In this document: one piece after another, positions 7,218 to 62,384 of the stretch
Layout: each line of letters opens with the position of its first letter
How positions within the stretch are numbered: the stretch's first letter is position 1
Origin: Corticimicrobacter populi
Lineage (GTDB): Bacteria; Pseudomonadota; Gammaproteobacteria; Burkholderiales; Burkholderiaceae_B
Direction of reading: 5' to 3'
Assembly (NCBI RefSeq): GCF_003123725.1
Contig: NZ_QETA01000001.1
Coordinates: 930,001-994,000, forward strand
Length of the DNA stretch: 64,000 bases
Notes under the pieces: model-generated
Told to the model about the DNA's origin: nothing
What the model saw: the letters and a program-made list of their open reading frames with translations, nothing else
Databases searched by the model: none
Made by a program: the position numbers and the translations under genes

Positions 7218-7237
7218 TTCCTCTATCTCTCAACATC

Positions 7238-7687: not shown

Positions 7688-7763
7688 GGGCACAATTTGA
7701 CCTAAAGCAAGCGCTTCATCGAAGATCACCGGCAGGCCTGAAGAACTGTTATAGAATCTGCGC

Positions 7764-8219: not shown

Positions 8220-8302
8220 TTTCCGGACATATCTGTCCGGGCATGCCGTGCCACAGGCAGGGCATGCAGCACCATCATAGAGACAGAACAAAGGATTTTC
8301 CG

Positions 8303-8905: not shown

Positions 8906-8931
8906 TCGCCGTCACATCAAAGGAATAAGAC

Positions 8932-10374: not shown

Positions 10375-11009
10375 AGCCCTTGCAGAAAACCCTGCTTGCC
10401 ATTGGTGGCGTGCTGCTGCTGGCCGTGGCGGCACTCTACCCGACCACCCGCGGCTTCCAGGCGCTGACAGCCGATACCGCGCGGCGCGTTGAACTGGCCC
10501 AGGATCCCAGGCCGTTGCCATCCATGACGCTGGTCGACCAGCAATGGCAGGCCTTCGACCTGCAAGCCTATCCGGGCCATCCGGGCCGCTGGACCGTGGC
10601 AACGCTGGTCTACACACAGTGCACGGCCATCTGCCGCGCCAGCGCCACCGGGCTGGCGTATATCCAGGAGGCACTGGCTGAACATCCGGCACTGGAAGGA
10701 CGCGTGCAGTTGCTGACACTCAGCTTCGATCCGGCTCGCGACACGCCTGAGCAACTCGATACCTATGCACGCCAGTTGCGGGCACGCGCTGACATCTGGC
10801 GCTTTGCCACCGTGACACAGGAAGCCGACCTGCTGCGTATGCTGAACCTGTTCGATATCATCGTACTGCCGGATCGCATGGGCGGCTATGATCACAATGC
10901 AGGCCTGTTCCTGATCAACCCGGAAGGTCGCATCATGCGTGCCTACGACGTCACCCGCCCAGATCTTGTGCTGGCCGATCTGCTGGCATTTTCCGCACTG
11001 GCACCATGA
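10371..11009 (+). CDS. Second SCO-family protein
   Basis: A 212-residue SCO/SenC-type thioredoxin-fold protein anchored by one N-terminal membrane segment (LLAIGGVLLLAVAALYP). The copper-binding pair is CTAIC (Cys84, Cys88) and the histidine is in YDHNAGLFL (His175), so the metal site looks complete. LLTLSFDPARDTPEQL matches the family's conserved strand. It differs from the first SCO (8303) in lacking a lipobox and in having a longer spacing between domain motifs, which suggests another target. It overlaps both neighbours by 4 bases. Confidence 0.9.
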   Translation: MKPLQKTLLAIGGVLLLAVAALYPTTRGFQALTADTARRVELAQDPRPLPSMTLVDQQWQAFDLQAYPGHPGRWTVATLVYTQCTAICRASATGLAYIQEALAEHPALEGRVQLLTLSFDPARDTPEQLDTYARQLRARADIWRFATVTQEADLLRMLNLFDIIVLPDRMGGYDHNAGLFLINPEGRIMRAYDVTRPDLVLADLLAFSALAP

Positions 11010-11575
11010 CACTACGCCGCTGCTGGTCCCATCCCCTGATCCCCGGTCTGCTGTTGCTGTTGACCGCACTGGCACGCCCCTGGCTGGAAGCCTCGATGGC
11101 ACGACACATGGCGCTGGAATTGCCGGCCCTGTTCATCGTGGGCTGGCTGTCGGCACGACATCTCAGACCTGCCGCGGGCACGCCGTTCTGTGCCTGGAAC
11201 CAGGAAGGCATCCCGGCCCTGCTGCTGGCCTCGCTGATCACACTGTTCTGGATGATCCCTCTGGCACTGGATGCAGCCGTCCTCGACCCAGCCGTGGCGG
11301 TGCTGAAAGTCTGTTCGGTCATCGCTGCCGGCTTGCTGGCCGGCTGGTGCTGGCCCCGCCTGCACCTGATCGTGCAGGCCCTGTTTCTCTTCAACTGGAC
11401 CGCCATGAACCTGCTGATCGGCATCCTTTACATCGGAGCCCCCCAGCAATTGTGCAGCACCTATCTGGCTGACGACCAGCTCTGGGCCGGACGTGGTCTG
11501 ATCACCTGGAGCATGGTCGCCATGGGTGGCTGGATCGGCTGGTGGGTCTTTCAGTTAAGGCGCAGGTTGCGCTGA
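11006..11575 (+). CDS. Unknown multi-pass membrane protein of the copper/cytochrome cassette
   Basis: A 189-residue hydrophobic protein with about five or six membrane segments (for example LIPGLLLLLTALARPWL, LPALFIVGWLSA, IPALLLASLITLFWMIPLAL, VCSVIAAGLLAGWC, MVAMGGWIGWWVFQL). I do not recognise a named family, but LCSTYLADDQLWAGRGL between the last two helices looks conserved-domain-like. Position and coupling (4-base overlap with the second SCO gene) suggest a role in oxidase assembly or copper delivery. Its 3' end overlaps the convergent PAS-GGDEF-EAL gene by 25 bases. Confidence 0.8.
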   Translation: MTLRRCWSHPLIPGLLLLLTALARPWLEASMARHMALELPALFIVGWLSARHLRPAAGTPFCAWNQEGIPALLLASLITLFWMIPLALDAAVLDPAVAVLKVCSVIAAGLLAGWCWPRLHLIVQALFLFNWTAMNLLIGILYIGAPQQLCSTYLADDQLWAGRGLITWSMVAMGGWIGWWVFQLRRRLR

Positions 11576-13698
11576 ATCTGAAGACTGTCGATCAGATCGG
11601 CACAGCTCATCGGCCTTCCGAGCAGGAAGCCCTGAGCCTGATCGCATTTCTGGCGTTGCAGCCAATGATGCTGGCGTTCGGTTTCTACCCCTTCAGCCAA
11701 CACCTCCAGCCCCAGCTTGTGCGCCATGGCAATGATCGCGCTGACTACGGTCGCCTGGCTGTCGGCCTGCTCGATTTCATTGATGAAAACACGGTCGATC
11801 TTGAGTCGCTGTACCGGAAAGCGGATCAGATAGGATAGGCTGCTGAAGCCCGTGCCGAAATCATCGATGGCGATGCTCACACCACGCTCACGCAACTGCG
11901 TCAGGATCGGCAGTACATCCTCGACACTATCCATCAGCGAGGTTTCCGTAATCTCCAGCTCGATAAGGCGCGGATCAGCCTCGCATTCCCGCAGGGTATC
12001 GTTCAAACTCGCAAGAAAGTCTTCGTGGATCAGTTGATGCGGGGACACATTAATGGCAATCCGCAATTCCGGCTCGCCCAGCACTGCACGCACTTGCCCA
12101 ATCTCTTCGCAAGCGCGACGCATGACCCAGGCTCCTATCGGTACGATCAGGCCACTGCTTTCAGCAATCGGAATGAACTGATCCGGACCGACGCTGCCCC
12201 AGACCGGATGCTGCCAGCGCAGCAATGCCTCAAGGGCGACCACCTTGCCGGTCGCCACATCATATTGCGGCTGATAGGCCAGCCAGAACTGATTGCGGTC
12301 AATGGCTGTTTCGAGTGCCTGCTCAAGCTCGTGGTGACGCGCCACGCGCTGGGCCATTTCCTGAGAAAAGGCCTGACACTGTGAGCGACCGCGCCGTTTG
12401 GCCTCGTACATGGCCATATCCGCGTACATCATCAGCGCGGCTGAATCCGTGGCATGATCAGGAGCCAGACTGATACCCAGGCTGGCCGTAATACGGAATT
12501 CATACTCATTGACGCGAATTGGCGTACCCAGGCGTGCCAGCAGTTTGGCGGCCAACCGCCGAGCATTGTCGAGGCTGCCGATATCAGGCAGCACAACGAT
12601 GAATTCATCCCCTCCCAGCCTGGCCACCGTATCGCTTTCACGTACGGCCTTGCGCAGCCTTTCGGCGACCTGAGCCAGCAGGTGGTCACCAATATGGTGT
12701 CCCAGCGAATCATTGATGCGCTTGAAGTTATCTAGGTCAATCAGCAACACACCCACCGAGTTGCCATACCGACTGATCCGTCTGAGCGCTGTATCGAGTC
12801 GGTCCTGCATCAGGACGCGATTTGGCAAACCGGTCAGAATATCGTGGTGGGCAATATGCTGGATATATTCATCGGCACGCTTGCGCTCGCTGATATCGAA
12901 CGCCATCGCCAGAAAGCCTGACACCCCCTCGCTGGCATCCTTGAGCGCAGACAGTGTCAGTTGCACCGGAAACTTGGAGCCATCCCGACGCACATACATC
13001 CACTCCTGCCCGCTGCCGCGTGCATGGCTGGCATACGCGACAAACAGACTGAAATCCTGAGGTCCCGCATTGTCGATATGTGCATGCGACAACTCCTGGA
13101 TTCGCAAGCGTATTTCTTCACCATCATGGATTTGCAGCAAATTGACCCGCCCGACCAGATCGGCGGCCTTGTGCCAGAGCATTTTCTCGCTGGTCGGATT
13201 CATGGATACGATCGTGCCCGAAAGATCCGTGGCGATGATCGAAAACGGTGCCGCCTCGATCATCGCTTGTGCCAGGTGCTGTGCCTTGGCGGCCTCGTTC
13301 TGGGCCTGCCTGCGTGCCGAGGCATCGTAGACCGACACCATCACCCAGGTTTCGCCATCGACCGGCAAGGCGTTGAGGCCCACCTCAACAGCCAGTTCCG
13401 ATCCATCCTTGCGACGGCCCCTGACCTCGCGTGAGGCCCCCATGACCCGGCTGACCGGATTGTCCATGAATGAACGCCGCATCCCCTCGTGGCGGGGACG
13501 ACTGCGCGAAGGAATCAGAACGTCGATGGACTGCCCATGCAACTGCGCCAGTTCATAGCCGAACAGGCGCGACGCATAAGTATTGGTATAAGTGATGATC
13601 CCGTTCTGATCTGTCAGCAACATGGCAAATGGCATCGAATCGACGATGCCATTCACCATGTTGCGCATTTCAGAGAGACCTGTTTCGTTTTGCTTCAT
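11551..13698 (-). CDS. PAS-PAS-GGDEF-EAL cyclic-di-GMP signalling protein
   Basis: A cytoplasmic protein of about 715 residues without membrane segments. Two PAS sensor regions come first (MPFAMLLTDQNGIITYTN; APFSIIATDLSGTIVSMNP), the second with a PAC tail. The diguanylate cyclase domain has an intact GGDEF (ARLGGDEFIVVLPD). The phosphodiesterase domain has EALLRW, INVSPHQL, ELEITETSLM, DDFGTGFSS and LKIDRVFI, so both catalytic sites look complete and the net activity cannot be predicted. Start choice is uncertain: the ATG at 13698 was taken, but a GTG at 13713 or internal ATGs near 13668 are possible because none has a clear SD. It is convergent with the copper cassette. Confidence 0.93.
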   Translation of the reverse strand: MKQNETGLSEMRNMVNGIVDSMPFAMLLTDQNGIITYTNTYASRLFGYELAQLHGQSIDVLIPSRSRPRHEGMRRSFMDNPVSRVMGASREVRGRRKDGSELAVEVGLNALPVDGETWVMVSVYDASARRQAQNEAAKAQHLAQAMIEAAPFSIIATDLSGTIVSMNPTSEKMLWHKAADLVGRVNLLQIHDGEEIRLRIQELSHAHIDNAGPQDFSLFVAYASHARGSGQEWMYVRRDGSKFPVQLTLSALKDASEGVSGFLAMAFDISERKRADEYIQHIAHHDILTGLPNRVLMQDRLDTALRRISRYGNSVGVLLIDLDNFKRINDSLGHHIGDHLLAQVAERLRKAVRESDTVARLGGDEFIVVLPDIGSLDNARRLAAKLLARLGTPIRVNEYEFRITASLGISLAPDHATDSAALMMYADMAMYEAKRRGRSQCQAFSQEMAQRVARHHELEQALETAIDRNQFWLAYQPQYDVATGKVVALEALLRWQHPVWGSVGPDQFIPIAESSGLIVPIGAWVMRRACEEIGQVRAVLGEPELRIAINVSPHQLIHEDFLASLNDTLRECEADPRLIELEITETSLMDSVEDVLPILTQLRERGVSIAIDDFGTGFSSLSYLIRFPVQRLKIDRVFINEIEQADSQATVVSAIIAMAHKLGLEVLAEGVETERQHHWLQRQKCDQAQGFLLGRPMSCADLIDSLQIQRNLRLN

Positions 13699-16539: not shown

Positions 16540-16615
16540 TGGCTCCCCAACCTGGACTTGAACCAGGGACCTGCGGATTAACAGTCCGTCGCTCTACCGA
16601 CTGAGCTATTGGGGA
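16540..16615 (-). tRNA. tRNA-Asn (anticodon GTT), downstream copy
   Basis: A 76-base gene, read on the minus strand from TCCCCAATAGCTCAGTCGGT to an encoded CCA end. The acceptor stem TCCCCAA pairs with TTGGGGA. The anticodon loop CTGTTAA gives GTT (Asn) and the T arm is GGTTCAAGTCC. It is identical in sequence to the copy at 16649-16724. Confidence 0.97.
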
Positions 16616-16630
16616 TCAAACAAGCTATAA

Positions 16631-16636
16631 ATTATA
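16631..16636 (-). promoter_or_regulatory. Extended -10 element in the spacer between the two tRNA-Asn genes
   Basis: The minus strand reads TATGCTATAAT, an extended -10 with a perfect TATAAT placed 15 bases before the second tRNA gene. A -35-like TTGGGG at 17 bases would lie in the acceptor end of the first tRNA. The second copy may therefore have its own promoter. Confidence 0.4.
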
Positions 16637-16648
16637 GCATAGTTTTTT

Positions 16649-16724
16649 TGGCTCCCCAACCTGGACTTGAACCAGGGACCTGCGGATTAACAGTCCGTCG
16701 CTCTACCGACTGAGCTATTGGGGA
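16649..16724 (-). tRNA. tRNA-Asn (anticodon GTT), upstream copy
   Basis: A 76-base gene identical to the copy at 16540-16615, including the encoded CCA. The cloverleaf arms are complete. The 33-base spacer to the next copy suggests the pair arose by tandem duplication. Confidence 0.97.
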
Positions 16725-49546: not shown

Positions 49547-50356
49547 TCAGATCGCTGTCCCGCCCTCGACTACCGCATAGGCGGAGTGATTGTGGATGGA
49601 TTCGAAATTCTCGGCCTGCACCTGATAGCCACGCACACCGGGCTGGGCCGCAACACGCACAGCCACATCGCGCACCAGATCCTCGACGAATTTCGGATTG
49701 TCATAGGCGCGCTCGGTGACGTATTTTTCGTCAGGACGCTTGAGCAGCCCCCACAGTTCGCACGAACCTTCGCGCTCGATCACGCCAATCAGTTGATCAA
49801 GATCGATGTCGCTATCCAGCAGCACCTTGACCGTGACATGGGAGCGCTGGTTGTGCGCCCCATACTCGGAGATAGTCTTGGAACACGGACACAGGCTGGT
49901 GACTGGCACCAGTACGGTCAGCACGAAATCAACCCCATGCTCGCGGGACGCGCGCGCCAGAAAATTGACCTGGTAATCCAGCAGACTGCGCACACCTGAA
50001 ATCGGCGCGGCCTTTTCCACAAAATACGGAAAAGAGACTTCGATATCGCCTTTTTCGGCATGCAGGAGTTCCAGCATCTCGCTTGCCATGTTGCCGAAGC
50101 GGCTGCGATCCAGCGGTGTACTGCGGTATTGCTCCAGCAGCGCAATGAAGCGTGACATGTGCGTGCCCTTCTCCGTCGCGGGCAGCGCCACGGTCAGGGT
50201 CCAGTCACCCACCGTGGCCTGCGCACCCGAAGCCGACGCAACCTGAAGAGGATGCCGCACGCTGCGGATCCCTACGCGCTGGATCGGCACCTGCCGGGTA
50301 TCCTGCGAACTTTGTACATCCGGCATGGCTGCCGGTGCTGCTGCGGAAGTATTCAT
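49547..50356 (-). CDS. folE2: GTP cyclohydrolase FolE2
   Basis: A 269-residue enzyme making dihydroneopterin triphosphate from GTP, the first step of folate synthesis, in the zinc-independent FolE2 family. Family signatures: [15 protein letters not shown] at the N-terminus, the catalytic-cysteine region [20 protein letters not shown] and the C-terminal [16 protein letters not shown]. The ATG at 50356 is the frame start. FolE2 genes are often induced under zinc limitation via Zur; a palindromic region upstream may be relevant. Confidence 0.94.
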
Positions 50357-50457
50357 GACTCACCTGCTGCGAAACGGCTCACACCGCTCCGGATAAGAAA
50401 GGAAAGGGACATTATCCAACAAACGCCGGATACGTTCCGGCAAAGACCCTGCCAAGC

Positions 50458-50492
50458 AGAATGTTTATGCGCGTTTTATGCATAAACATTCT
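50458..50492. promoter_or_regulatory. 13-bp inverted repeat upstream of folE2
   Basis: AGAATGTTTATGC, a 9-base spacer and GCATAAACATTCT form a perfect palindrome 102-136 bases before the folE2 start. It also contains GTTTTATGCATAAAC, a near-palindrome reminiscent of Zur-type AT-rich operators. It may be an operator or a weak stem structure. Confidence 0.4.
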
Positions 50493-50537
50493 CACATAGA
50501 CTTTGGCAATTGTTTTACTTATTTTGATAGCCAAATC

Positions 50538-50582
50538 AAAAATAGTCAAACACCTATGCCGGCACCTGCCCGGCATAGGTGT
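50538..50582 (-). terminator. Rho-independent terminator after dxs
   Basis: ACACCTATGCCGG, a 7-base loop and CCGGCATAGGTGT form a 13-bp stem just after the dxs stop. The minus strand continues TTTGACTATTTTTG, a loose T-rich tract. Confidence 0.7.
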
Positions 50583-50585
50583 CGC

Positions 50586-52469
50586 TCACGAGACAAAACG
50601 TGCGCGGATCGAAGCCTCAATGCCCACGGCGTCGAGCCCCAGTTGCGCCCACAGCGCATTCTGGTCACCATGATCGATGAAACGGTCCGGCAGCCCCAGT
50701 TGCAGCACCGGCACCGACAGTCCAAGTGAATTGAGGGCTTCGCATACTGCGCTGCCGGCTCCGCCCATGATGCAGCCATCCTCCAGCGTCACCAGGCTCT
50801 GGTGCGTGGCCGCGATCTGTTGCAGCAGCTCGACATCGAGGGGTTTGGCAAACCGCATATCGACCAGTGTGGCATCCAGCCTTTCGGCGGCTGTCAGTGC
50901 AGCCTGCGCAAGCGTACCAAAAGCCAGGATGGCAATGTCCTGCCCCTGTCGACGCAACACGCCTTTGCCCAGCGGTACCTCGCCCAGCCCAGGCTCGATC
51001 ACCGCACCACAACCGGCACCACGGGGATAGCGAACCGCCGCCGGCCCGGCGTAGTGGTAGCAGGTGCTCAGCAACAGGCGCGCCTCGTTCTCGTCAGACG
51101 GCGTGGCGATCACCATATTGGGAATGCAGCGCATGAAGGCAATGTCATAGTTGCCGGCATGCGTCGCACCATCTGCCCCCACCAGCCCTGCCCGGTCCAG
51201 TGCGAACGTCACGTCAAGATCCTGCAACGCCACATCATGGATCAGTTGATCGTAGGCACGCTGCAAAAACGTGGAATAGATCGCCACCACGGGTTTCTGG
51301 CCCTCACAGGCCAGCCCTGCTGCAAAGGTCACCGCATGCTGCTCGGCAATGCCCACGTCGAAATAGCGGCGGGGAAAGCGCTTCTCGAACTCGACCAGGC
51401 CACTGCCCTCGCGCATCGCCGGCGTAATGCCGATCAAGCGCGAGTCTTGCGCTGCCATGTCGCACAGCCAGTCGCCAAACACCTGAGTGAATGTGGTTCT
51501 GGGCGGAGCCACAGGCGGCTGGATGCCCAGCGCAGGATCGAATTTGCCCGGTCCGTGGTACAGCACGGGATCGGCTTCGGCCCGCTTGTAACCATGCCCC
51601 TTGCGGGTCACGACATGCAGGAATTGCAGACCCGGCAACGCCTTTAGATTCTGTAACGTCGGCACCAGCGCATCAAGGTCATGACCATCGATGGGACCGA
51701 CATAGTTGAAACCGAGTTCCTCGAACAGGGTCGCCGGCACCACCAGTCCCTTGGCATGCCCTTCCAGCCGGCGCGCCAGTTCGAACACAGGCGGCACATG
51801 CTGCAGCACGGCCTTGCCGACATTGCGAGCGGTCGCATAGAAACGCCCTGACATCAGTCGGGCCAGGTAACGATTGAGGGCCCCCACCGGCGGCGAAATC
51901 GACATGTCGTTATCATTGAGGATGACCAGCATGTCGATATCCGGCGTGACACCGGCATTGTTCATAGCCTCGAACGCCATGCCGGCCGTCATCGCGCCAT
52001 CGCCAATGACGGCCACATGCTGGCGCGCCACGCCGCTGTTGCGCGACGCCACCGCCATGCCCAGCGCCGCCGAGATGGACGTGGAAGAGTGTGCCGTACC
52101 GAAAGCGTCGTACTCCGACTCGCTGCGCTTGGGGAAACCGGAAATACCATCCTGTTGGCGCAGCGTGGCCATGGCCTCACGCCGCCCCGTCAGGATTTTG
52201 TGCGGGTATGTCTGATGCCCGACATCCCAGACAATCCGGTCGTCAGGTGTGTCATAGACATGATGCAGAGCCACCGTCAGCTCGACGGTACCGAGATTCG
52301 ATGACAGATGTCCACCTGTACGCGATACGGAATCGATTACATAGTGCCGCACTTCATCGGCCAGTTGTCGCAGACTGCGGCGATCCAGCAGCCGGACATC
52401 GGCAGGCGAGTCAATGCGCTCCAGCAGTGAATAGGAAGTCTGTGTCGTCATGGTGTCGTTTTCGCTCAT
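50586..52469 (-). CDS. dxs: 1-deoxy-D-xylulose-5-phosphate synthase
   Basis: A 627-residue thiamine diphosphate enzyme, the first step of the MEP route to isoprenoids. TPP motif: [18 protein letters not shown]; other signatures: [34 protein letters not shown] and [14 protein letters not shown]. The ATG at 52469 overlaps the ispA stop (TGATG). It is downstream of xseB and ispA on the same strand, the classical order. Confidence 0.97.
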
Positions 52470-53392
52470 CAACGCTCCCGCGCCACGATGAAATCGGCCA
52501 AAGCGGCAAGATTGGCCGCTGCACCGCCCAGGGGAGCAATTGCCTCGTGTGCCTGGCGTCGCAATCCGGCAGCCAGTTCGCGAGCCGGCTCCAGCCCCAG
52601 CAATGAAACATAGGTCGGTTTGTTGTCTGCCTGATCCTTGCCTGCCGTCTTGCCCAGCACTGCTGTGTCAGCCGTCACATCAAGGATGTCATCCACAATC
52701 TGGAAGGCCAGCCCGATGGCGCGTGCATAGCTGCGCAACGCCTGACGCTGCGGCGAACTGGCGGCCGCCACAATGCCGCCCAGCATGACGCTGGCCTCCA
52801 GCATGGCACCGGTCTTGAGGGCGTGCATGTTTTCCAGCTCCGGCTGTGTCATGCCCAGCCCCACATGGGCCAGATCGATGGCCTGTCCGCCCGCCATGCC
52901 GCGACTGCCCGCAGCAACAGCCAGCGTATGCACGGCCTGCACGATCAGGGCCGGGGCAATCGGCATTTCTGCCAACCACTCGAAGGCCAGTGGCTGCAGC
53001 GCATCCCCCGCCAGCATGGCAGTCGCTTCACCGAACCGGATATGCGCAGTCGGCTGACCGCGACGCAAGGCGTCATCATCCATGCACGGCAGGTCATCAT
53101 GTACCAGCGAGTAGGCATGAATCAGCTCAACTGCGGCCGCTGCACGATCAAGCCCGGCCTCGACGGCCGTCGCGCCCGCCGGATTGTTCAGACAGGTCTG
53201 CCCGGCCGCATATACCAGCAGCGCCCTGACCCGCTTGCCACCACCCAGCACGGCATAGCGCATTGCCTCGTGCAACGCGGTCGGCTCGCGGTCGGCCGGG
53301 ACCAGCCAGTTGTCCATGACCTGTTCGACGCGGCTGATGCGCTCACGCACCCAGCCGTCGAAACGGTCCGTCTGATAATGAATCGGACTCAC
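52469..53392 (-). CDS. ispA: Farnesyl diphosphate synthase (geranyltranstransferase)
   Basis: A 307-residue prenyltransferase. First Asp-rich motif: [17 protein letters not shown]; second: [30 protein letters not shown] follows. The product FPP feeds quinone, undecaprenyl and squalene (hpnCDE) synthesis. It overlaps xseB by 4 bases and dxs by 1 base, so the three are translated as a unit. Confidence 0.96.
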
Positions 53393-53622
53393 GCACGTTC
53401 TCCAGTCGCCTGCTCCAGCGGCCGCAGCAGATCCTGCTCCAGCACCTTGACCTGCTGTTCGGCCTGCTCGAGCTGCTGCTGGCAGGTCCGGGCCAGAGCC
53501 ACGCCACGCTGGTAGGCTTCGAGCGAGCGCTCAAGAGGCATATCGCCACGCTCCATGGCCGCCGCAAGCTGCTCCAGTTCTGACAGGGCAGCTTCGAATC
53601 CTTGCGGTTGATCTGTACTCAA
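53389..53622 (-). CDS. xseB: Exodeoxyribonuclease VII small subunit
   Basis: A 77-residue helical subunit of ExoVII (FEAALSELEQLAAAMERGD, MPLERSLEAYQRGVALAR). The start is a TTG at 53622 with GGAGG five to six bases upstream; no ATG fits the start of the domain. The C-terminal part (EQAEQQVKVLEQDLL) is typical. XseA is encoded elsewhere. Confidence 0.92.
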   Translation of the reverse strand: MSTDQPQGFEAALSELEQLAAAMERGDMPLERSLEAYQRGVALARTCQQQLEQAEQQVKVLEQDLLRPLEQATGERA

Positions 53623-53816
53623 GTACGCCTCCGTGGAGCAACGATAAAAAAGCGATTGTACAAAGAAGCACGCCGCTTGCAGCAAGAACCCACCCTGCAA
53701 TGGCGGGAAGCGCAGGGGCCATGGGGTACAATTGCCCCCTTTCTTCGCGCCTGCGCGGACGCATGAACGGCGTGCCGTCCCGCAGGCTTCACTGTCATGG
53801 CGGAGGGAAATCCCTG

Positions 53817-54959
53817 ATGACCGCACGCGACCGCATCGCGCTACCCCGTACCCAGTTGCCTGTCGAAGCCTATTTCGACGAAGCCCGCCTGCAGCGGGAA
53901 CAGGAACTGATTTTCAAGCAATCCGCGCTCTACGCCGGGCACACCAGCATGGTGCCCGATCCCGGCGACTGGCGCACGCTGGCGCACGAGCGCAACGGTC
54001 GCATCCTCATCCATCAACCTGCCGGGCAACACGCCCTGCTCTCCAACGTCTGCCGCCATCGCCAGGCCCTCATGCTGGGCGGTGAGGCTGGCCGCGTCGA
54101 CGGCCCGATCCATGATCGGGGCAATCTGCGCGACACCGGCGGCAATATCGTCTGTCCACTGCATCGCTGGACCTACAACGGTGAAGGCGAACTGCTGGGT
54201 GCGCCTCAGTTCGACAGCAAACCCTGCCTGAACCTGCAGCGATTTCCACTGCAATCCTGTCATGGGTTGCTGTTCGAAGGCCCGCGCAATGCGGCAGGCG
54301 ACCTCGGTCATCTTTTCTCGCGGCCCGAATTCGATTTCTCTGATTACGTACTTGATCACGTCGAACTCCACCAGTGCAACTACAACTGGAAGACGTTCAT
54401 CGAAGTCTACCTGGAAGACTATCACGTCGGCCCCTTCCACCCCGGACTGGGTCGCTTCGTCACCTGTGATGACCTGCAATGGGAGTTCGGCGACTGGCAC
54501 AGCCTGCAGCGGGTCGGTGTCCACCAGGCACTCTCTCAGCCGGGCTCGGACATCTACAGCCAGTGGCATGATCGACTGCTTGAATACCGGGAAGGCCAGG
54601 CACCGGACTTCGGCGCACGCTGGGTCACATATTTTCCGACCCACATGATCGAACTGTATCCTCATGTGCTGGTGCTGTCGACGCTGTATCCCCAAGGCCC
54701 GCAGGAAACGCTCAACGTGGTCGAGTTCTACTACCCGGAAGAAATCGCCGCATTCGAGCGCGAGTTCGTCGAAGCACAGCGTGCTGCCTACATGGAAACC
54801 GCCATCGAGGATGATGAGATCGCCGAACGCATGGATGCGGGCCGGCTGGCACTGTTCAAGCGAGGCATCTCCGAAGCCGGCCCCTACCAATCACCGATGG
54901 AAGACGGCATGCGCCACTTCCACGAATGGTACCGCCGCGTGATGGGCGAGCCCGCCTGA
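53817..54959 (+). CDS. Rieske-type ring-hydroxylating oxygenase, alpha-subunit-like
   Basis: A 380-residue protein with an N-terminal Rieske domain and a C-terminal catalytic domain with mononuclear iron. The Rieske ligands are Cys79-x-His81 (NVCRHRQALML) and Cys113-x2-His116 (VCPLHRWTY). They are 31 residues apart rather than the usual 16-17, because of an insertion (EAGRVDGPIHDRGNLRDTGG). The catalytic iron site is EDYHVGPFHPG (His203, His208). The substrate is unknown. No reductase or beta-subunit gene is near. GGAGGG lies before the ATG. It faces xseB on the other strand. Confidence 0.9.
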   Translation: MTARDRIALPRTQLPVEAYFDEARLQREQELIFKQSALYAGHTSMVPDPGDWRTLAHERNGRILIHQPAGQHALLSNVCRHRQALMLGGEAGRVDGPIHDRGNLRDTGGNIVCPLHRWTYNGEGELLGAPQFDSKPCLNLQRFPLQSCHGLLFEGPRNAAGDLGHLFSRPEFDFSDYVLDHVELHQCNYNWKTFIEVYLEDYHVGPFHPGLGRFVTCDDLQWEFGDWHSLQRVGVHQALSQPGSDIYSQWHDRLLEYREGQAPDFGARWVTYFPTHMIELYPHVLVLSTLYPQGPQETLNVVEFYYPEEIAAFEREFVEAQRAAYMETAIEDDEIAERMDAGRLALFKRGISEAGPYQSPMEDGMRHFHEWYRRVMGEPA

Positions 54960-55282
54960 TGGCAGACTGCCTGGTCGAGGTGACTCGGGACAGCGTCTGC
55001 ATGGGGGATGATGTCGATGCCCCCCACTTCCTGCGGCTTGCCCTGCCCGTAACCGTAACGCTGAAGGATGTGTTCCTGATGCTGGCAGAGAAGCATTATC
55101 TGCCTGGGATTGCAGGACAACACCATTACTGGGAAGCCTGGAGCGCAGGAAGATTGCTGGCGTCATTCACGGGTAACAGTGCAACACCCGAGCATTCTGC
55201 CTGCCTGATCGAGAAACTTGCCGAACATGCCACGGATGGAAAGTTCGGCATTGAATTCAAATACTACAGCGCGACGACCTGA
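54959..55282 (+). CDS. Unknown small protein of the post-Rieske cassette
   Basis: A 107-residue protein with no signal peptide or membrane segment. It begins ADCLVEVTRDSVCMGDD and ends FGIEFKYYSATT, with a conserved-looking centre KHYLPGIAGQHHYWEAWSAG. I do not recognise a named family; the style resembles small immunity-like proteins, which is inference. It overlaps the oxygenase stop (TGATG), so it is probably translated from the same transcript. The next gene begins 40 bases later. Confidence 0.7.
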   Translation: MADCLVEVTRDSVCMGDDVDAPHFLRLALPVTVTLKDVFLMLAEKHYLPGIAGQHHYWEAWSAGRLLASFTGNSATPEHSACLIEKLAEHATDGKFGIEFKYYSATT

Positions 55283-55322
55283 GCATGCAGCTGTCTATAG
55301 CCACCTTGCGTGCAAATCAACC

Positions 55323-55802
55323 ATGCGACGACGCAGAAACCTGAAAGGGGTTGCGGCGGGCATGGCTTCAGCCTTCATCTCCCGTTACAACGATGTGGAC
55401 GGCTACTGGGGCATGGGTATGATCTACCGCGATCTGTCGATCCGGTGCGTACACACTTTTCGCCTGGATCTATTGACAGGACATACCCTTCCATCGTTGT
55501 CATATACCTCGATGATGGCAAAAACCTATGGGCAGCGCCTGCTGCGCATGATTGAGCGCCATGGCCTCAGCCTGTCGCAGGTCAGCGAGGCCCGCATTGA
55601 GATTCTGTTCAATACACAGCAGCCCATGGGAGCGGCCGTCACGGATAGACGCTCACATGGAGACCCATTCTCCTGTACCGCATACATCCGTGATGACCTG
55701 GGCCATCTCTGGACATTCAGCCAGCAAGGACGCTGCCGGCGACACGACCCACGCAAAGAGCAACGCAGCACACGCAGAAATACGGATTTCCATGAAGCAT
55801 GA
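55323..55802 (+). CDS. Unknown protein with NDVDGYWGMG motif
   Basis: A 159-residue, basic protein without signal peptide. The N-terminus MRRRRNLKGVAAGMASAFI is followed by SRYNDVDGYWGMGMIYRDLS, which looks like a conserved core, and later by RRSHGDPFSCTAYIRDDLG. The C-terminal 25 residues are rich in Arg (GRCRRHDPRKEQRSTRR). I cannot assign a function. The gene overlaps the DUF5071 gene downstream by 11 bases. The ATG at 55323 was taken because the arginine-rich start is conserved-looking; the frame reaches back to 55218. Confidence 0.7.
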   Translation: MRRRRNLKGVAAGMASAFISRYNDVDGYWGMGMIYRDLSIRCVHTFRLDLLTGHTLPSLSYTSMMAKTYGQRLLRMIERHGLSLSQVSEARIEILFNTQQPMGAAVTDRRSHGDPFSCTAYIRDDLGHLWTFSQQGRCRRHDPRKEQRSTRRNTDFHEA

Positions 55803-56214
55803 CGTGACATACGACGCATCAACCGACATCAGCAGGCTCGTTCCCGGCCACAAAGGGGATTTCGATGCCTGTCATCGCCTGCTTGAGGCCAGCCCGGAAC
55901 AGATCCGACGCGTATTGCCGGAATTGCTGGTGTGGCTGCAAGACATCAACTGGCCCATTGCGCCCTATATCCTGAAAGCGCTGCGCCCGCTTGACGCGGC
56001 CCTGGCTCAGCCTGTCATGGACATCCTGGCGGGCGACGACGAAATGTGGAAATACTGGATCATCAGCAACCTGCTGCCACAGGTCAGAACCGAAGTACGG
56101 CAGGCATTGCACCCGCGCATCGTTGCCATCGCGAAGCAGCCAACGCCCGGCGAAGCGGCAGACGAAGTGAATCTGGCTGCCGCCGGGCTGCTGGCACAAT
56201 GGGGATCGGATTAA
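55792..56214 (+). CDS. DUF5071-like protein
   Basis: A 140-residue cytosolic protein. [37 protein letters not shown] and [16 protein letters not shown] fit the DUF5071 family, helical-repeat-like proteins of unknown function that occur near immunity-type genes. It starts inside the last 11 bases of the previous gene. Its stop shares the palindrome TTAA with the convergent htpX stop. Confidence 0.75.
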
Positions 56215-57095
56215 CCGCGCCCGCCAGCCTGCTGCAGCGCCTGGATACGCACCGGAATCGGCGGATGGGTCGCGAACAGCGCAGCAATCGCACCACCCCC
56301 TGTAATACCTGACGCCTCGAAGGTCTTGGGCAACTCGCCGGCCGGTACTCCCCCCAGGCGAGCCAGCGCACGGATCATCGGTTCACGCGAACCCAGCAGA
56401 TGAGCTGCACCAGCATCGGCACGGAATTCACGCTGGCGCGAGAACCAGGCCACGATAATCGACGCCAGAATGCCGAAGACGATTTCACAGACGATCACGG
56501 TGGCAAAATAACCCAGCCCGCCGCCCTTGTCGTTCTTGAGCACCACGCGGTCGATGAAGTAGCCCACCACGCGGGCAAAGAACACCACGAAGGTATTGAC
56601 CACGCCCTGGATCAGCGTGAGCGTGACCATATCGCCATTGGCAATGTGGGCGACTTCGTGGCCCAGCACGGCCATCACTTCCTCTTCGGTCATGCTGTGC
56701 AGCAGGCCGGTTGAAACAGCCACCAGCGAATCGTTCTTGAAGGCACCGGTGGCAAAGGCATTCGGCTCGCCTTCGTAAATAGCCACCTCGGGACGGCCGA
56801 TGCCGGCGCGATCCGCCAGTTGATGTACGGTATCGACCAGCCAGGCTTCACGATGGTCAGCCGGGGCATTGGGATCGATCACGCGCGCGCCGGTGCTCCA
56901 CTTGGCCATGGGCTTGCTCATCAGCAGCGAGATGAACGAACCCGTAAAACCGACCACGACCGAAAACACCAGCAGTGCCTGGATGTTCAGTCCCTGGGAC
57001 GTGATGTAGCGATCCACGCCAAGCAAACGCAACGTAATGCTCAGGACGACGATCACTGCCAGGTTGGTCATGAGAAACAGGGCAATACGTTTCAT
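56211..57095 (-). CDS. htpX: Protease HtpX
   Basis: A 294-residue membrane zinc protease for quality control of membrane proteins. Start [20 protein letters not shown]; zinc motif [15 protein letters not shown]; third ligand region [18 protein letters not shown]. The C-terminal [15 protein letters not shown] is typical. The ATG at 57095 begins the first membrane segment; an in-frame start 16 codons earlier is less likely. It is divergent from the DMT permease gene. Confidence 0.96.
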
Positions 57096-57233
57096 GGGCT
57101 GGAAATCCTGCAAAGGTTCAAGGTTGAAAGGCTTTGACGCCAAAATACCCGATCAGTTCCTGGCCGGGCACACGGCAGCGGAGTATAGTCTCTTGCTCTA
57201 AGTCAATTATCATCGGACAAGGCGAATTATCCC

Positions 57234-58079
57234 ATGCAGGCGCTCTGGATGCTGCTGGCGGCAGTCATGTTTTCCCTGATGGGCCTTTTCGTCAAGCTCG
57301 CCTCGCAGCAAGACATCACGCTGGCACAGATCGTCCTGTTCCGGGGCGTGCCCTCGGTGCTGCTGATCCTGTTCTGGGCACGCTCCGCACGCCAGCGTGT
57401 CTGGCCCACCCAATGGCGTCCCCACCTCTATCGCAACCTCACCGGCGTCACCGCCATGTGGCTGGGCTTCTATGCCTTGTCGCACCTGCCGCTGGCCACT
57501 GCCACCAGCCTGAGCTATACCGCGCCACTGTTCATCGCCGGCTGGATGCTGGCACAAAGCGGGCAGCAACGCGACCCGGTCTGCATCGCCAGCGTGGCGG
57601 TCGGATTCCTGGGAGTCCTGCTGATCCTGCGTCCCAGCATCGGTGCAGATGACACGTTGCCAGCGGCATTGGGCCTGCTGGGCGGTGCCTTTTCAGCCGT
57701 CGCCTACATGCAGGTCCGCCAGTTGGGCCGAATGGGAGAACCGGAATGGCGCACCGTGCTGCTGTTCTCGCTCACCGTCAGTTTCAGCAGTCTGCTGGGC
57801 CTCTATACGCTGGGCTGGCATCCGCTTGATCTGCAGGGCTGGCTGACCCTGATCGGTCTGGGCATCACCGGCATGCTCGGCCAGCTTTCCATGACGCGGG
57901 CGTTCGGCCTGGGATCTGCCCTGCTGTCAGCTGCGCTGCAGTACAGTACCATCATATTTGCAGTCATACTCGGCATTTTCTTTTTCGATACCTATCCGGA
58001 CACGCTGGCCTGGATCGGCATGGCCGGCATTGTCCTGGCCGGCCTGCTCTCGGTATGGCGCACCGTGACCCATCACTGA
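57234..58079 (+). CDS. EamA/DMT-family membrane transporter
   Basis: A 281-residue protein with ten predicted membrane segments in two EamA repeats (MFSLMGLFVKLASQQDITLA; SLSYTAPLFIAGWMLA; second repeat LPAALGLLGGAFSAVAYMQV, ALQYSTIIFAVILGIFFFD). The substrate is unknown; family members export metabolites or drugs. It starts 138 bases from htpX in the opposite direction. sseA follows 16 bases later on the same strand. Confidence 0.88.
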   Translation: MQALWMLLAAVMFSLMGLFVKLASQQDITLAQIVLFRGVPSVLLILFWARSARQRVWPTQWRPHLYRNLTGVTAMWLGFYALSHLPLATATSLSYTAPLFIAGWMLAQSGQQRDPVCIASVAVGFLGVLLILRPSIGADDTLPAALGLLGGAFSAVAYMQVRQLGRMGEPEWRTVLLFSLTVSFSSLLGLYTLGWHPLDLQGWLTLIGLGITGMLGQLSMTRAFGLGSALLSAALQYSTIIFAVILGIFFFDTYPDTLAWIGMAGIVLAGLLSVWRTVTHH

Positions 58080-58095
58080 CAATTTTGGAGACACC

Positions 58096-58962
58096 ATGCC
58101 CAACTACACCACGCTCGTGACGCCCGAAGCGCTCAAGGCACTGCTGGCCAGCGATCCTGCGGGCATCCGCATTTTCGATGCCCGTCACGACCTTGGCGAC
58201 CACGAGGCGGGACGACGAGCCTACAACACCGGGCATATCCCCGGTGCCCTGTTTCTCGACCATGAAACCGATCTGTGCAGCCCCCGCACCGGACGCAATG
58301 GTCGCCATCCACTGCCTGACCGCGCTGCATTCGCAGCACTGATCCAGGCCCAGGGCGTCGGCCCGCAGACCCAGGTCATCATCTACGATGCCAGCAGCGG
58401 CCCGTTTGCCGCCCATCTGTGGTGGATGCTGCGCTGGATCGGCCATGCCAACGTCGCCGTGCTGGATGGTGGCTGGCAGGCCTGGCGTTCCGCCGGCTAT
58501 GCGGTCGAAACCCAGTCACAGCCCCTGGCCGCCGCTGGCGCTCATCCCAAGGATCTGCCTGCCTCGCTGGTCGGCACGGTCGATGCCGCAGCCGTACAGG
58601 CCAATATTCCACTGCAACGCTTTACCATCCTGGATGCCCGAGCAGGCAACCGCTACCGCGGTGAAGTCGAACCCATGGATCCGGTCGCCGGTCACATCCC
58701 TGGCGCGCTCAACCGTCCTAACAGCGAAAACCAGGCCGCCGACGGGCGCTTCAAGCCGGCAACCACCCTGCGAGCCGAGTTCGAATCGGTACTGGGCGAA
58801 CGCAATCCCGGTGACATCGTGCACCAGTGCGGCTCCGGCATCACGGCATGCCACAATCTCCTGGCCATGGAAATCGCCGGCCTGACTGGCAGCCGGCTGT
58901 ATCCTGGCTCGTGGAGCGAATGGTGCAGCGACCCGGTTCGACCTGTTGCTACGGGTGCATGA
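58096..58962 (+). CDS. sseA: 3-mercaptopyruvate/thiosulfate sulfurtransferase
   Basis: A 288-residue protein with two rhodanese domains. The inactive first domain contains LGDHEAGRRAYNTGHIPGA; the second has the active cysteine in HQCGSGITACHNL, of the CG(S/T)G(V/I)T(A/S) type of mercaptopyruvate sulfurtransferases. It transfers sulfur to acceptors such as cyanide or thiols in the cytosol. SD TTGGAGACA. Convergent with polA. Confidence 0.92.
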   Translation: MPNYTTLVTPEALKALLASDPAGIRIFDARHDLGDHEAGRRAYNTGHIPGALFLDHETDLCSPRTGRNGRHPLPDRAAFAALIQAQGVGPQTQVIIYDASSGPFAAHLWWMLRWIGHANVAVLDGGWQAWRSAGYAVETQSQPLAAAGAHPKDLPASLVGTVDAAAVQANIPLQRFTILDARAGNRYRGEVEPMDPVAGHIPGALNRPNSENQAADGRFKPATTLRAEFESVLGERNPGDIVHQCGSGITACHNLLAMEIAGLTGSRLYPGSWSEWCSDPVRPVATGA

Positions 58963-58986
58963 CAATCGCAGGCCACCTTCTGCAAA

Positions 58987-61707
58987 TCAGTGTGCCTGCT
59001 CCCAGTTGTCACCCTCGCCCACCTCGGCGACCAGGGGCACCTTGAGCTCGGCAACCTCGCACATCAGCGCGGGCAAGGCATCGCGCAAGGTCTTGACCTC
59101 AGATAGCGGGACATCGAACACCAGTTCATCATGCACCTGCATGATCATGCGCGTGGCCAGCTTTTCTTGCTCCAGCCAGCGTTCGACCCGCACCATCGCC
59201 TTCTTGATCAGGTCGGCAGCAGTGCCCTGCATGGGGGCGTTGATAGCGGCCCGCTCGGCAGCCTGCCGGCGTGGCCCGCTGCCGCCCCGGATTTCCGGCA
59301 GCCACAGACGCCGGCCAAACACCGTCTCGACGTAGCCCAGCTCGCGTGCCGCGAGACGAGTTTCATCCATGTAGCGTGCCACGCCCGGATAGCGCATGAA
59401 ATAGCGGTCGATATAGGATTGCGCAGCATCGCGGGTGATCCCCAGATTCGATGCCAGCCCGAAGGCTCCCATGCCGTAGATCAGGCCAAAATTGATGGCC
59501 TTGGCGGCGCGGCGCTGCTCGGAGGTGACTGCATTCATCTCCACCCCGAACACTTCGGAAGCCGTGGCCCGGTGGATGTCTGCGCCGGCGGCAAAGGCTT
59601 TCTGGAGGTTTTCGTCATCCGAGACATGCGCCATGACCCGCAGTTCGATCTGTGAGTAATCGGCGGACACGATGCGACCACCATCCGTTGCAACAAAAGC
59701 CGCCCGCACGCGGCGGCCCGCCTCTGTACGAACGGGAATGTTCTGCAGGTTAGGGTCCGACGAAGCCAGCCGCCCCGTGATCACGGCAGCCTGGGCGTAG
59801 CGGGTATGCACCCGGCCCGTGGCAGGCTCGATCATGCGCGGCAGCTTGTCGGTATAGGTGGACTTGAGCTTGGAGAGGCCACGATAGTCGAGCAATGCCT
59901 TGGGCAGCGGATAGTCCTGGGCCAGTCGCGTCAACACTTCCTCGTCGGTCGAAGGCGCACCGCCGGCTGTCTTGCGCACGACCGGCAAGCCCATGCGACC
60001 GAACAGGATCTCTCCGAGTTGCTTGGGAGAATTCAGATTGAACGGCTGGCCGGCCAGTTCGTAGGCGCGCTGCTCGATCTGCAACATTTCCTGGCCCAGC
60101 GCATGACTCTGGTGTGCCAGTTCGTCGGCATCAATGCGTACGCCATTGCGTTCGATCGCCACCAGCACCGGCGACACCTCTATCTCCAGGCGATAGGTCG
60201 CCAGCAGGCCGGCTTCCGCCTCGACCCTGGGATACAGCACCTGATGCAATTGCAGTGTGAAATCGGCATCTTCGCTGGCGTAATGGGCAGCCTGGTCGAT
60301 ATCGACTTCGTCGAAGCCGATCTGCTTGGCCCCCTTGCCGCACAGTTGTTCGTACGTCACACCCTCGCGCCCCAGCCAGCGCCGGGCCAGGTCGGTCATG
60401 CCGACACCACGGTGCGACTCCAGCACATAGGCCTGCAGCATCGTATCGTGCTCCACACCTCCCAGCGCAATACCTTCATTGGCAAACACATGGGTATCGT
60501 ACTTGGCATGGTGCAGCACTTTGGGCGCAGCGGACGCCAGCCAGGGCCCCAGGCGGGCCAGGACTTCATCCCTGGGCAATTGCTCGACGGCATCCGGCCC
60601 CCTGTGTGCCAGCGGGATATAGCAGGCACGGCCCGGTGCGACCGCCAGTGAAATACCGACCAGACGAGCCTGCATTTCATTGAGAGACGTCGTCTCGGTA
60701 TCCAGCGCCACCAGTTCGGCCTGAGCCAGCAAATCTTGCCAGCGCTCGAAATCCGCCCATGTCAGGATGGTGTCGTAATTGACTTCGACCGGGCCGGCCT
60801 GCTGGACCTCTGCAGCAATCCGCGCATCGCCTTCGGGAATGCGACCGGCATCGCCACTCAATTCACGCAACCAGCTCCGAAAACCATAGCGCTCATAAAG
60901 GTCGAGCAGCGTATCCTGATCTGCTTCCCGCATGATAAGTGCATCCCAGTCAGCGGCATGCGCATCCAGGTCGCAATCGGTCTTGACCGTCAGCAGTTGC
61001 CGGGTCAGATTGAAATTGGGAATGGCGTCGCGCAGATTCTGCCCTGCCACACCCTTGATCTGCTCCGCCACCTCAATCAGTTTTTCGATGGAGCCATGCT
61101 CCGACAGCCACTTGACCGCTGTCTTGGGGCCGACCTTGGTCACGCCTGGTACATTGTCGACCGTATCCCCGATCAGCATCAGGTAATCGACGATACGCTC
61201 GGGTGGCACACCGAACTTGGCCAGCACACCGGCAGGGTCCAGGCTCTCGCCGCTCATGGTGTTGACCAGCGTAGTGTGCGCATCGGCAAGTTGGGCCAGA
61301 TCCTTGTCGCCGGTGGATATGATGGTCTGCATGCCGGCGGCCGCAGCCCGTACCGACAAGGTTCCGATCACGTCATCGGCCTCTACACCCTCGACCGCCA
61401 GCACGGGCCAGCCCAACGCTCTGACCGCCTGGTGAATCGGCTCGATCTGTCGTGCCAGATCTTCCGGCATGGAAGGACGCTGCGCCTTGTATTCGGGATA
61501 CAGGTCATCACGAAAGGTCTTGCCCCGTGCATCGAACACGCAGGCGGCATACTTTGCCTTGTGATCCTGCGTCAGCTTGCGTAGCATATTGACTACACCA
61601 TACAGTGCACCGGTCGGTTCGCCCTGAGCATTACGCAGATCCGGCATGGCATGATAGGCGCGGTACAGATAACTAGAACCGTCCACCAACAACAAGGTTT
61701 GACTCAT
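58987..61707 (-). CDS. polA: DNA polymerase I
   Basis: A 906-residue three-domain repair polymerase. 5'-3' exonuclease: LLLVDGSSYLYRAYHAMPDL and VEADDVIGTL. The 3'-5' proofreading domain has its motif DTETTSLNEM and YASEDADFTL, so it looks active. Polymerase motifs: DYSQIELRVMAH, RRAAKAINFGLIYGMGAF and QVHDELVFD. The start codon lies only 2 bases from that of the divergent LOG-family gene. Confidence 0.97.
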   Translation of the reverse strand: MSQTLLLVDGSSYLYRAYHAMPDLRNAQGEPTGALYGVVNMLRKLTQDHKAKYAACVFDARGKTFRDDLYPEYKAQRPSMPEDLARQIEPIHQAVRALGWPVLAVEGVEADDVIGTLSVRAAAAGMQTIISTGDKDLAQLADAHTTLVNTMSGESLDPAGVLAKFGVPPERIVDYLMLIGDTVDNVPGVTKVGPKTAVKWLSEHGSIEKLIEVAEQIKGVAGQNLRDAIPNFNLTRQLLTVKTDCDLDAHAADWDALIMREADQDTLLDLYERYGFRSWLRELSGDAGRIPEGDARIAAEVQQAGPVEVNYDTILTWADFERWQDLLAQAELVALDTETTSLNEMQARLVGISLAVAPGRACYIPLAHRGPDAVEQLPRDEVLARLGPWLASAAPKVLHHAKYDTHVFANEGIALGGVEHDTMLQAYVLESHRGVGMTDLARRWLGREGVTYEQLCGKGAKQIGFDEVDIDQAAHYASEDADFTLQLHQVLYPRVEAEAGLLATYRLEIEVSPVLVAIERNGVRIDADELAHQSHALGQEMLQIEQRAYELAGQPFNLNSPKQLGEILFGRMGLPVVRKTAGGAPSTDEEVLTRLAQDYPLPKALLDYRGLSKLKSTYTDKLPRMIEPATGRVHTRYAQAAVITGRLASSDPNLQNIPVRTEAGRRVRAAFVATDGGRIVSADYSQIELRVMAHVSDDENLQKAFAAGADIHRATASEVFGVEMNAVTSEQRRAAKAINFGLIYGMGAFGLASNLGITRDAAQSYIDRYFMRYPGVARYMDETRLAARELGYVETVFGRRLWLPEIRGGSGPRRQAAERAAINAPMQGTAADLIKKAMVRVERWLEQEKLATRMIMQVHDELVFDVPLSEVKTLRDALPALMCEVAELKVPLVAEVGEGDNWEQAH

Positions 61708-61709
61708 AG

Positions 61710-62384
61710 ATGACCCAGAATAAGTTACACGCCGACTGGCAGATAGACAGAATTATGTCAGAGATCCAGCAGGCGTCAGACGCACTCGCCCATATCGGGC
61801 AGGCGGTCAGCATTTTCGGCAGTGCGCGCATCCGCCAGGACTCGCCCTGGTACGCACAGACCCAGGATATCGCCGGTAGGCTTGCGACAGCAGGGATCGC
61901 AGTGATCGCCGGCGGCGGCCCCGGCCTGATGGAAGCAGCCAACAAGGGAGCCCATGAACAGGGCGGCACCAGCATTGGTCTGAACATCAGCCTGCCGCAC
62001 GAGCCGACCAATAATCCCTACCAGACACTCAGCCTGCCATTCGAATATTTCGTCTCGCGCAAGGCCGCCTTCTTCATGCACAGCATCGGCTACATTGCCA
62101 TGCCCGGCGGCTTCGGCACGCTTGACGAACTGTTCGAAGCCATGACCCTGATCCAGACCGGCAAACTACCGGCAGCACCCATCATGCTGGTCGGCAGCAG
62201 CTACTGGAACGGCCTGATCGACTGGTTGCGCGAACAACTGCAGACACGGGCGCTGATCGGCCCCAACGATCTCGGGCTGCTTGAAATCGAGGACGACACC
62301 GACCGTGTCGTCGAACGCATCATCCAGTTCGCCGGCTGCATCACGCAGGACGCAGGCTCTCGCGAGAGCTGCATCCTGCCCTGA
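61710..62384 (+). CDS. LOG-family protein (TIGR00730)
   Basis: A 224-residue protein with the motifs GGGPGLMEAANKGA and PGGFGTLDELFEAMTLIQTG of the Lonely-Guy family, which releases cytokinin-like bases from nucleotides or acts as a nucleotide monophosphate phosphoribohydrolase. The start at 61710 (MTQNKLHADWQIDRIMSE) is supported because the long LOG type has a similar WxxxRIMSE segment; a start at 61755 would drop it. It is divergent from polA and convergent with the ABC-F gene. Confidence 0.9.
   Translation: MTQNKLHADWQIDRIMSEIQQASDALAHIGQAVSIFGSARIRQDSPWYAQTQDIAGRLATAGIAVIAGGGPGLMEAANKGAHEQGGTSIGLNISLPHEPTNNPYQTLSLPFEYFVSRKAAFFMHSIGYIAMPGGFGTLDELFEAMTLIQTGKLPAAPIMLVGSSYWNGLIDWLREQLQTRALIGPNDLGLLEIEDDTDRVVERIIQFAGCITQDAGSRESCILP

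Follow-up and report, generated by a model that had tools for sequence, protein, structure and literature searches.

Three unrelated accessory genes, probably acquired horizontally, form a composite patch behind a Rieske oxygenase gene of Corticimicrobacter populi

The stretch of Corticimicrobacter populi DNA analysed here (64,000 nucleotides, positions 930,001 to 994,000 of contig NZ_QETA01000001.1, referred to as the window) carries three small co-directional genes directly behind a Rieske/ring-hydroxylating oxygenase gene. Our comparisons indicate, with good confidence, that this patch was acquired horizontally and brings together three accessory genes that are unrelated to each other. This confidence does not extend to a protective function of the products, which is weighed separately below. 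The acquisition of three independent accessory genes is the statement best supported by the sequence comparisons. We therefore describe the patch as real, acquired and composite, and as an ordinary locus with two unnamed protein families of moderate interest. The locus itself is regarded as ordinary, since mobile cargo genes are commonly assembled in such composite patches.

Results

Three coding genes between an oxygenase gene and a convergent HtpX frame

The gene for the oxygenase alpha-subunit (53817..54959, plus strand; PF00355 and PF00848) lies outside the patch and is its conserved left neighbour. Its TGA stop codon has one base in common with the ATG of gene 1 (54959..55282, plus strand), which encodes 107 residues with a conserved RDSV..GDD..APH loop, an invariant tryptophan at position 58 and a predicted ubiquitin-like beta-grasp fold, and which belongs to an unnamed family. 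After a spacing of 40 bases follows gene 2 (55323..55802, plus strand; 159 residues), a member of a family with the pattern R-x-N-D-x-x-G-x-W. It overlaps by 11 bases with gene 3 (55792..56214, plus strand; 140 residues), a DUF5071 protein related to the solved Cthe_2751, which in turn shares 4 bases (56211-56214) with the convergent HtpX frame. An earlier reading of the window, made from the sequence alone, had described three co-directional genes of 107, 159 and 140 residues at 54959-56214, with gene 1 overlapping the oxygenase stop and genes 2 and 3 overlapping by 11 bases. These coordinates and overlaps hold, as does its naming of the oxygenase. It had further assigned only the third protein to a named family, DUF5071. 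PF16804 matches this protein with 104.6 bits, and genes 1 and 2 gave no match in Pfam, NCBIfam, PADLOC or PHROGs at E-values up to 1.

In all three genes, the annotated frame had the best codon score of the six possible frames (0.205, 0.011 and 0.186 for genes 1, 2 and 3), with nine neighbouring genes scoring 0.213-0.381. The support is weak for gene 2 (0.011), the other five frames of which score negative. As each gene also has relatives elsewhere, the three are more than chance frames.

Absence from relatives and position at an inverted block

Relatives of the oxygenase were detected in 54 of 61 genomes, including the genome of C. populi itself (E <= 1e-60). Of the 53 other genomes in which it was matched, 29 were compared by means of loci with flanks of about 1.5 kb, and genes 1-3 were found behind the oxygenase in none of them; among the 30 oxygenase loci, only the locus of the window matched. 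The sequence-only reading had proposed an insertion among housekeeping genes, and had taken the retention of all three genes in every relative as the outcome that would speak against a mobile or immunity cassette. The insertion is borne out, since the patch is missing at the same place in all 29 relatives, and no such retention was observed.

The patch is followed by a block (56211..58962) of an HtpX gene (minus strand), a DMT transporter gene and a rhodanese gene (both plus strand), and then by polA on the minus strand, so that the order in the window is oxygenase>, gene 1>, gene 2>, gene 3>, HtpX<, transporter>, rhodanese>, polA<. Among 11 longer stretches from related genomes, HtpX was detected in nine, in all of which it is oriented like the oxygenase, opposite to its orientation in the window. 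Four of the 11 show the order oxygenase>, rhodanese<, transporter<, HtpX>, three are alike without a detected rhodanese, two show oxygenase> HtpX>, and in two the oxygenase is followed by none of them; PolA< comes next in seven. Compared to these stretches, the block is inverted in C. populi, with the patch at its left end. The names dxs, ispA, xseB, HtpX, DMT transporter, rhodanese, polA and LOG given to neighbouring genes were read from the sequence, and the family scan was applied only to the oxygenase among them. Elsewhere in the window, a tandem pair of tRNA-Asn genes with the same anticodon is located at 16540-16724.

The G+C content of genes 1, 2 and 3 is 0.559, 0.562 and 0.598, respectively, compared to 0.595-0.651 in the nine neighbours. 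Taken together, the absence in relatives, the edge of the inversion and the lower G+C content of genes 1 and 2 indicate that the patch is foreign to this locus. Two points count against this conclusion or limit it. The G+C content of gene 3 falls inside the range of its neighbours, and the genomes compared include no second Corticimicrobacter, so that the patch may be either fixed in the genus or recent.

The three families are also rare in the genomes sampled around C. populi. In the order sample, two of the 398 other genomes contain a relative of gene 1; relatives of gene 2 are absent from the other 267 genomes of the family (E <= 1e-3), with one far weaker relative among 368 other genomes of the class sample. 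DUF5071 was found in none of 249 other genomes of the order sample (one of 250 with C. populi included) and in four of 397 other genomes of the phylum sample (five of 398 with C. populi included). A gene 2 match in genome G045 (E 4.4e-4) was judged to be due to chance, as by eye it lies in or opposite an NAD-kinase-like frame, and 14 matches in genomes of the family with E-values of 0.008 to 0.085 were set aside.

No linkage among the three families

Family profiles were run over 187 sequences, which had been fetched with one or the other family as bait, so that this linkage test covers their flanks only, some of which are short. Gene 1 was detected in 93, gene 2 in 24 and gene 3 in 13 of these sequences, and more than one family was present only in the window and in five loci derived from the same place of the C. 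populi genome. Since no other locus compared carries two of the three families, the patch appears to be a composite and not a conserved operon; its genes share no linkage in the loci compared. Many relatives of the three families were found singly and often, judging from their surroundings, on mobile DNA. The idea of a mobile cassette put forward by the sequence-only reading gains from this, as the families have relatives in integron-type arrays, on plasmids and in viral contigs. Two observations limit this for the patch itself. The 40-base gap and the overlapping junctions leave no room for an attC site between its genes, and no integron integrase over the cut-off was found in the genome of C. 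populi. The pattern scans for attC made here were not reliable enough to judge whether the patch is a cassette.

Gene 1 encodes a predicted beta-grasp domain of a widespread family

A genome scan yielded 127 relatives of gene 1, of which 80 loci were kept. They span Proteobacteria, Actinomycetes, Firmicutes, Planctomycetes, Verrucomicrobia, Hymenobacter and others. Neither the alignment nor the neighbour sets include near-duplicate loci. All 62 aligned rows agree at R10, S12, D17, D18 and W58, and nearly all do so at D11, V13, G16, H23, L48 and Y102. The AlphaFold2 model (predicted local distance difference test, pLDDT, 90.5; predicted template modelling score, pTM, 0.81) shows strands at residues 3-10 and 24-30, a helix at 35-44 and strands at 57-62, 65-71 and 95-103, which is the ubiquitin-like order. 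VIA-align placed the model closest to the UBX domain of FAF1 (Z 8.6 over 74 residues, root-mean-square deviation 2.1; only just above the range that the program labels common), with SUMO and ubiquitin at Z 7 to 8. Foldseek returned no match at E <= 1e-3 (best E 2e-3), and neither gene 1 nor gene 2 matched a solved structure by sequence at E-values up to 1. On the basis of two strands, a helix and three strands in the model, we are confident in predicting a ubiquitin-like beta-grasp fold for gene 1. The fold by itself does not give the function, and many beta-grasp proteins serve as binding domains only.

The protein has no C-terminal di-glycine and ends with SATT. A frameshift at this end, for which the approximately 20 additional residues of the long relatives could have spoken, was rejected, as a short subfamily (e.g. 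loci L066, L085 and L099) ends alike, with FKYHSA-type termini. One relative of gene 1 was found in the viral contigs, and phage records, searched for genes 1 and 2, gave no match to either. Our literature search on beta-grasp proteins in connection with immunity or integrons found no paper that, going by its listing, describes gene 1. By these comparisons, genes 1 and 2 represent two families unnamed in the four libraries scanned, with relatives in distant bacteria.

Some gene 1 relatives reside in integron-type arrays

Detection of attC sites by pattern and folding was abandoned: a first version found none even in clear arrays, and a second reported 86 sites for 119,154 bases of control sequence as against 817 for the 873,195 bases of the gene 1 loci, a similar rate per base and thus of no use. 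Instead, interspersed repeats were counted. Segments covered by at least three repeat matches were present in nine of 84 gene 1 loci, and in six of these nine, from five genomes, the relative lies between two copies of a regular array. These are loci L091, L092, L095, L110, L116 and L154, from the planctomycete CA13 (twice), Rhodopirellula maiorica, Rhodopirellula rubra, an Arenicella genome and G333, which belongs to the order of C. populi. None of 29 control loci was positive, but these comprise about 4.1 kb each compared to about 12 kb for most gene 1 loci. The repeats of L154 fold as hairpins with complementary ends of the RYYYAAC / GTTRRRY type. The same kind of ends occurs in L092, the top match of the gene 1 genome scan (E 1e-19), where not every copy makes one rod. 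All four array genomes tested (CA13, Rhodopirellula rubra, Arenicella and G333) contain an integron integrase over the curated cut-off of TIGR02249, compared to none of 14 control genomes; the Vibrio plasmid record described below also has none.

By these data, some gene 1 relatives are single-gene integron-type cassettes. The integrase over the cut-off in CA13 is far from the array, and adjacency was not shown in the other three genomes; CA13 also has weaker integrase-like pieces (98.7 and 92.2 bits) at a distance of about 3 kb from the gene, provided that the contig numbers correspond. No gene-flanking array was seen in the other 78 of the 84 loci. The two CA13 relatives (L095 and L091) are identical over a 300-base repeat and lie 4,008 bases apart in one array.

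Other relatives are part of housekeeping operons. In four Psychrobacter genomes and one Acinetobacter genome (L065, L067, L069, L130 and L138), the gene 1 relative is flanked by a LeuC-type and a LeuD-type gene, which is a stable site unusual for an accessory gene, and in Streptococcus it precedes a KsgA-type gene (names assigned by eye and with Pfam).

Neighbours of gene 1 relatives and toxin systems of the host

The sequence-only reading had considered orphan immunity for the three genes. For gene 1, some hints in this direction were found. A Barstar gene lies two genes upstream of the relative in genome G555, and a Tsi6 match (28.9 bits, cut-off 26.9) lies about 300 bases from the relative of Paraburkholderia nodosa. 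Near the Thaumasiovibrio relative, a SUKH-1 match remained below the cut-off (24.4 compared to 25.4 bits), and in Paraburkholderia graminis the annotation places a haemagglutinin-domain gene at about 700 bases from the relative. Small neighbours were collected on the same strand within 2 kb in 33 of 37 chosen loci; these 37 were picked from the 80, with Actinomycetes, most Streptococcus and the leu-operon loci excluded. Among the 25 of 47 families listed for the 96 small neighbours are SUKH-1 with two matches and PAAR, Fic and RelB with one match each. The genome of C. populi itself contains a match to TssC of the type VI secretion system (T6SS) and two frames with a TPS domain, of 2401 and 3996 residues. 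With Barstar, Tsi6 and SUKH neighbours and the T6SS and TPS proteins of the host, orphan immunity is a reasonable though not a demonstrated role for gene 1. In the G555 locus (L153, contig C3), positions 6264-9845 hold a run of small co-directional genes, including the Barstar gene and a chorismate-mutase-like gene. Seven of these genes were scanned, and five of them matched no Pfam family; this run around the gene 1 relative could be an immunity array.

Several observations weigh against an immunity role. The gene calls of the near-identical locus of Burkholderia sp. H160 (L071) contain no Tsi6 frame. The host genome has no RHS-repeat match, and no cognate toxin was found; no toxin was recognised by eye among the frames at 50000-62000, the part of the window to which this look-over was confined. 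A crude motif scan of the loci compared revealed no RHS or VENN frames. Furthermore, metabolic or housekeeping functions prevail among the commonest named neighbours of the gene 1 relatives (aconitase-type, RrnaAD and CobS, with 25 of 75 families listed for 79 close neighbours). A toxin association, as suggested by the sequence-only reading, was thus not seen, and its immunity reading retains a hint for gene 1, whereas no immunity context was noticed around the relatives of genes 2 and 3, the neighbours of which were identified mostly from annotation or by eye. PADLOC matches among the 79 same-strand close neighbours include mad2, mad3, mad8 and AriA (25 of 56 families listed).

Gene 2 defines a family with plasmid and viral-contig relatives

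The SRYNDVDGYWGMG core is the signature of the gene 2 family: R21, N23, D24, G27, W29 and G32 are invariant in 14 aligned rows, together with R4, F18, L50, Y69 and H141. The unusual core pointed out by the sequence-only reading is therefore present, but as a family-wide signature and not as a lone oddity. Relatives with 26-34% identity are found in 12 plasmid records and eight viral contigs. In two of the latter, inspection by eye places them beside phage genes of repressor-like and tail-like appearance, and another viral contig (L145) nearly equals the Pantoea plasmid copy of a gene 2 relative. One of 15 gene 2 loci was positive for an array, namely a Vibrio vulnificus plasmid on which the relative directly follows an integron-type repeat and is followed by IS30; other relatives adjoin IS66 elements or, by eye, lie close to genes resembling phage repressors. 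The predicted structure (helix-helix-strand-helix-three strands-helix; pLDDT 81.4) was built on seven sequences, and its comparison with the PDB gave nothing convincing (best Foldseek E 0.11, best VIA Z 5.0). In locus L155 (G710:C36:72000-84300; positions 6834-7289 and 9849-12299), a distant relative lies a few kb from frames which, by eye, resemble ubiquitin-like and JAB-like proteins, a ThiF-like enzyme and HsdM, and the region is a possible defence island.

Gene 3 belongs to DUF5071

The product of gene 3 matches PF16804 at positions 1-116 of 119 (104.6 bits, cut-off 27; E 5.4e-30) and the solved Cthe_2751 chains (3ut4, 3ut7 and 3ut8) by sequence with E 2.2e-15, which assigns it to DUF5071 on the profile and sequence level. 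Cthe_2751 has been described as an all-helical protein which was negative in a test for binding of double-stranded DNA and the function of which was left open (PMC3282739). Five plasmid records carry DUF5071 relatives. Three of these plasmid loci were read, and each has a transposase gene at a distance of no more than about 0.7 kb, as seen from the annotation in Rhizobium and by eye in Pseudosulfitobacter and Variovorax; in the four loci of the phylum sample, with flanks of about 1.5 kb, no transposase was noticed. Our literature search found no paper on DUF5071.

Discussion

We propose that three genes, from families found singly and often on mobile DNA, were joined at the breakpoint of a local inversion, and that the patch may be read through from the oxygenase gene. 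Each product would be a small soluble single-domain protein that acts by binding and offers conditional protection. In the case of gene 1, the beta-grasp domain with its RDSV-GDD-APH loop might cap an incoming antibacterial toxin. An orphan immunity protein is our first choice for the function of gene 1, albeit a tentative one which we hold to be somewhat less probable than its opposite; for genes 2 and 3, the same role is less probable than for gene 1. It may further be speculated, as a rather doubtful extension, that gene 1 founds a wide, partly integron-borne family of stand-alone ubiquitin-fold proteins which inhibit toxins or phage proteins via RDSV-GDD-APH as contact loop, and that the patch is an example of how a chromosome takes up single-gene cargo of this kind, arranged as a compact operon where an inversion has its breakpoint.

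The main rival explanation is anti-phage cargo, in which at least one of the three proteins would block phage infection. The relatives of genes 1 and 2 in integron-type arrays would fit, as would the eight viral contigs with gene 2 relatives, two of them beside phage-like genes, and the mad2, mad3, mad8 and AriA matches near gene 1 relatives. In addition, at least 16 of 179 cassettes of Vibrio cholerae and 9 of 57 cassettes of Vibrio parahaemolyticus were active against phages, according to a review (PMC12409362). This base rate alone, however, amounts to about 9-16%. The near identity of L145 with the Pantoea plasmid copy means that a viral label is no proof, and in our judgement many of the PADLOC neighbour matches are to ATPase or methyltransferase models that fit other proteins too. 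The three proteins themselves have no PADLOC match at E-values up to 1, which excludes only the systems modelled there. We consider this explanation unlikely.

We judge it similarly improbable that all three genes form an orphan immunity array against T6SS or contact-dependent toxins. Barstar, Tsi6 and sub-threshold SUKH near three gene 1 relatives, the SUKH-1, PAAR and Fic matches among the small neighbours, the haemagglutinin-domain gene near one relative and the host TssC and TPS proteins are in line with it, and the absence of a toxin beside the patch is what orphans would show. Yet this context concerns gene 1 alone, the RHS search in the host and the crude RHS and VENN motif scan of the loci compared were negative, and the available text of a polymorphic-toxin survey (PMC3482391) does not mention DUF5071.

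A ubiquitin-like modifier for protein conjugation appears very unlikely for gene 1. The likeness of its model to UBX, SUMO and ubiquitin would suggest this role, but the chain lacks the glycine-glycine tail of such proteins, Foldseek gave no match at its threshold, and no E1-, E2- or JAB-like frame was noticed by eye around the gene. Metabolic accessory genes belonging with the oxygenase are still less probable and largely refuted: gene 1 begins within the stop codon of the oxygenase, which may couple their translation, but 54 of 61 genomes retain the oxygenase, the patch is missing beside it in 29 of 29 relatives, and the relatives of the three genes adjoin unrelated genes.

Two by-products of the analysis are of use beyond the locus. 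One is the definition of two unnamed families by genes 1 and 2; the other is that gene 1 has a fold model of high confidence and only a few invariant residues, so that its function can be tested directly. Should gene 1 turn out to be an inhibitor, a role would follow for many hypothetical proteins in several phyla (127 relatives).

Among known systems, integron cassettes, for which proteins with new folds and binding pockets have been described (Sureshan et al. 2013, PMC3548836), resemble the patch genes in being small and single-domain, without a named family and spread one gene at a time, and some relatives of genes 1 and 2 belong to this kind. In contrast to cassettes, the patch genes have no attC-like repeats between them, overlap or nearly touch, and reside in a host without an integrase over the cut-off. 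Orphan immunity arrays at T6SS loci, known for example from Vibrio (PMC5361080), likewise consist of small, dissimilar, co-directional genes without a toxin, and a few gene 1 relatives lie near Barstar or Tsi6. Unlike them, the patch is, as far as the region was read, not at a T6SS, RHS or contact-dependent inhibition (CDI) locus, and it shows no match to a Pfam immunity family and no cognate toxin. Gene 1 differs from ubiquitin-like domains such as the UBX domain of FAF1 and SUMO in that it has no detectable sequence relation to solved chains, no conjugation tail and a different conserved loop, and resembles them in its predicted fold and strand-helix order. Gene 3 resembles the solved Cthe_2751 in sequence and shares with it membership in DUF5071 according to Pfam.

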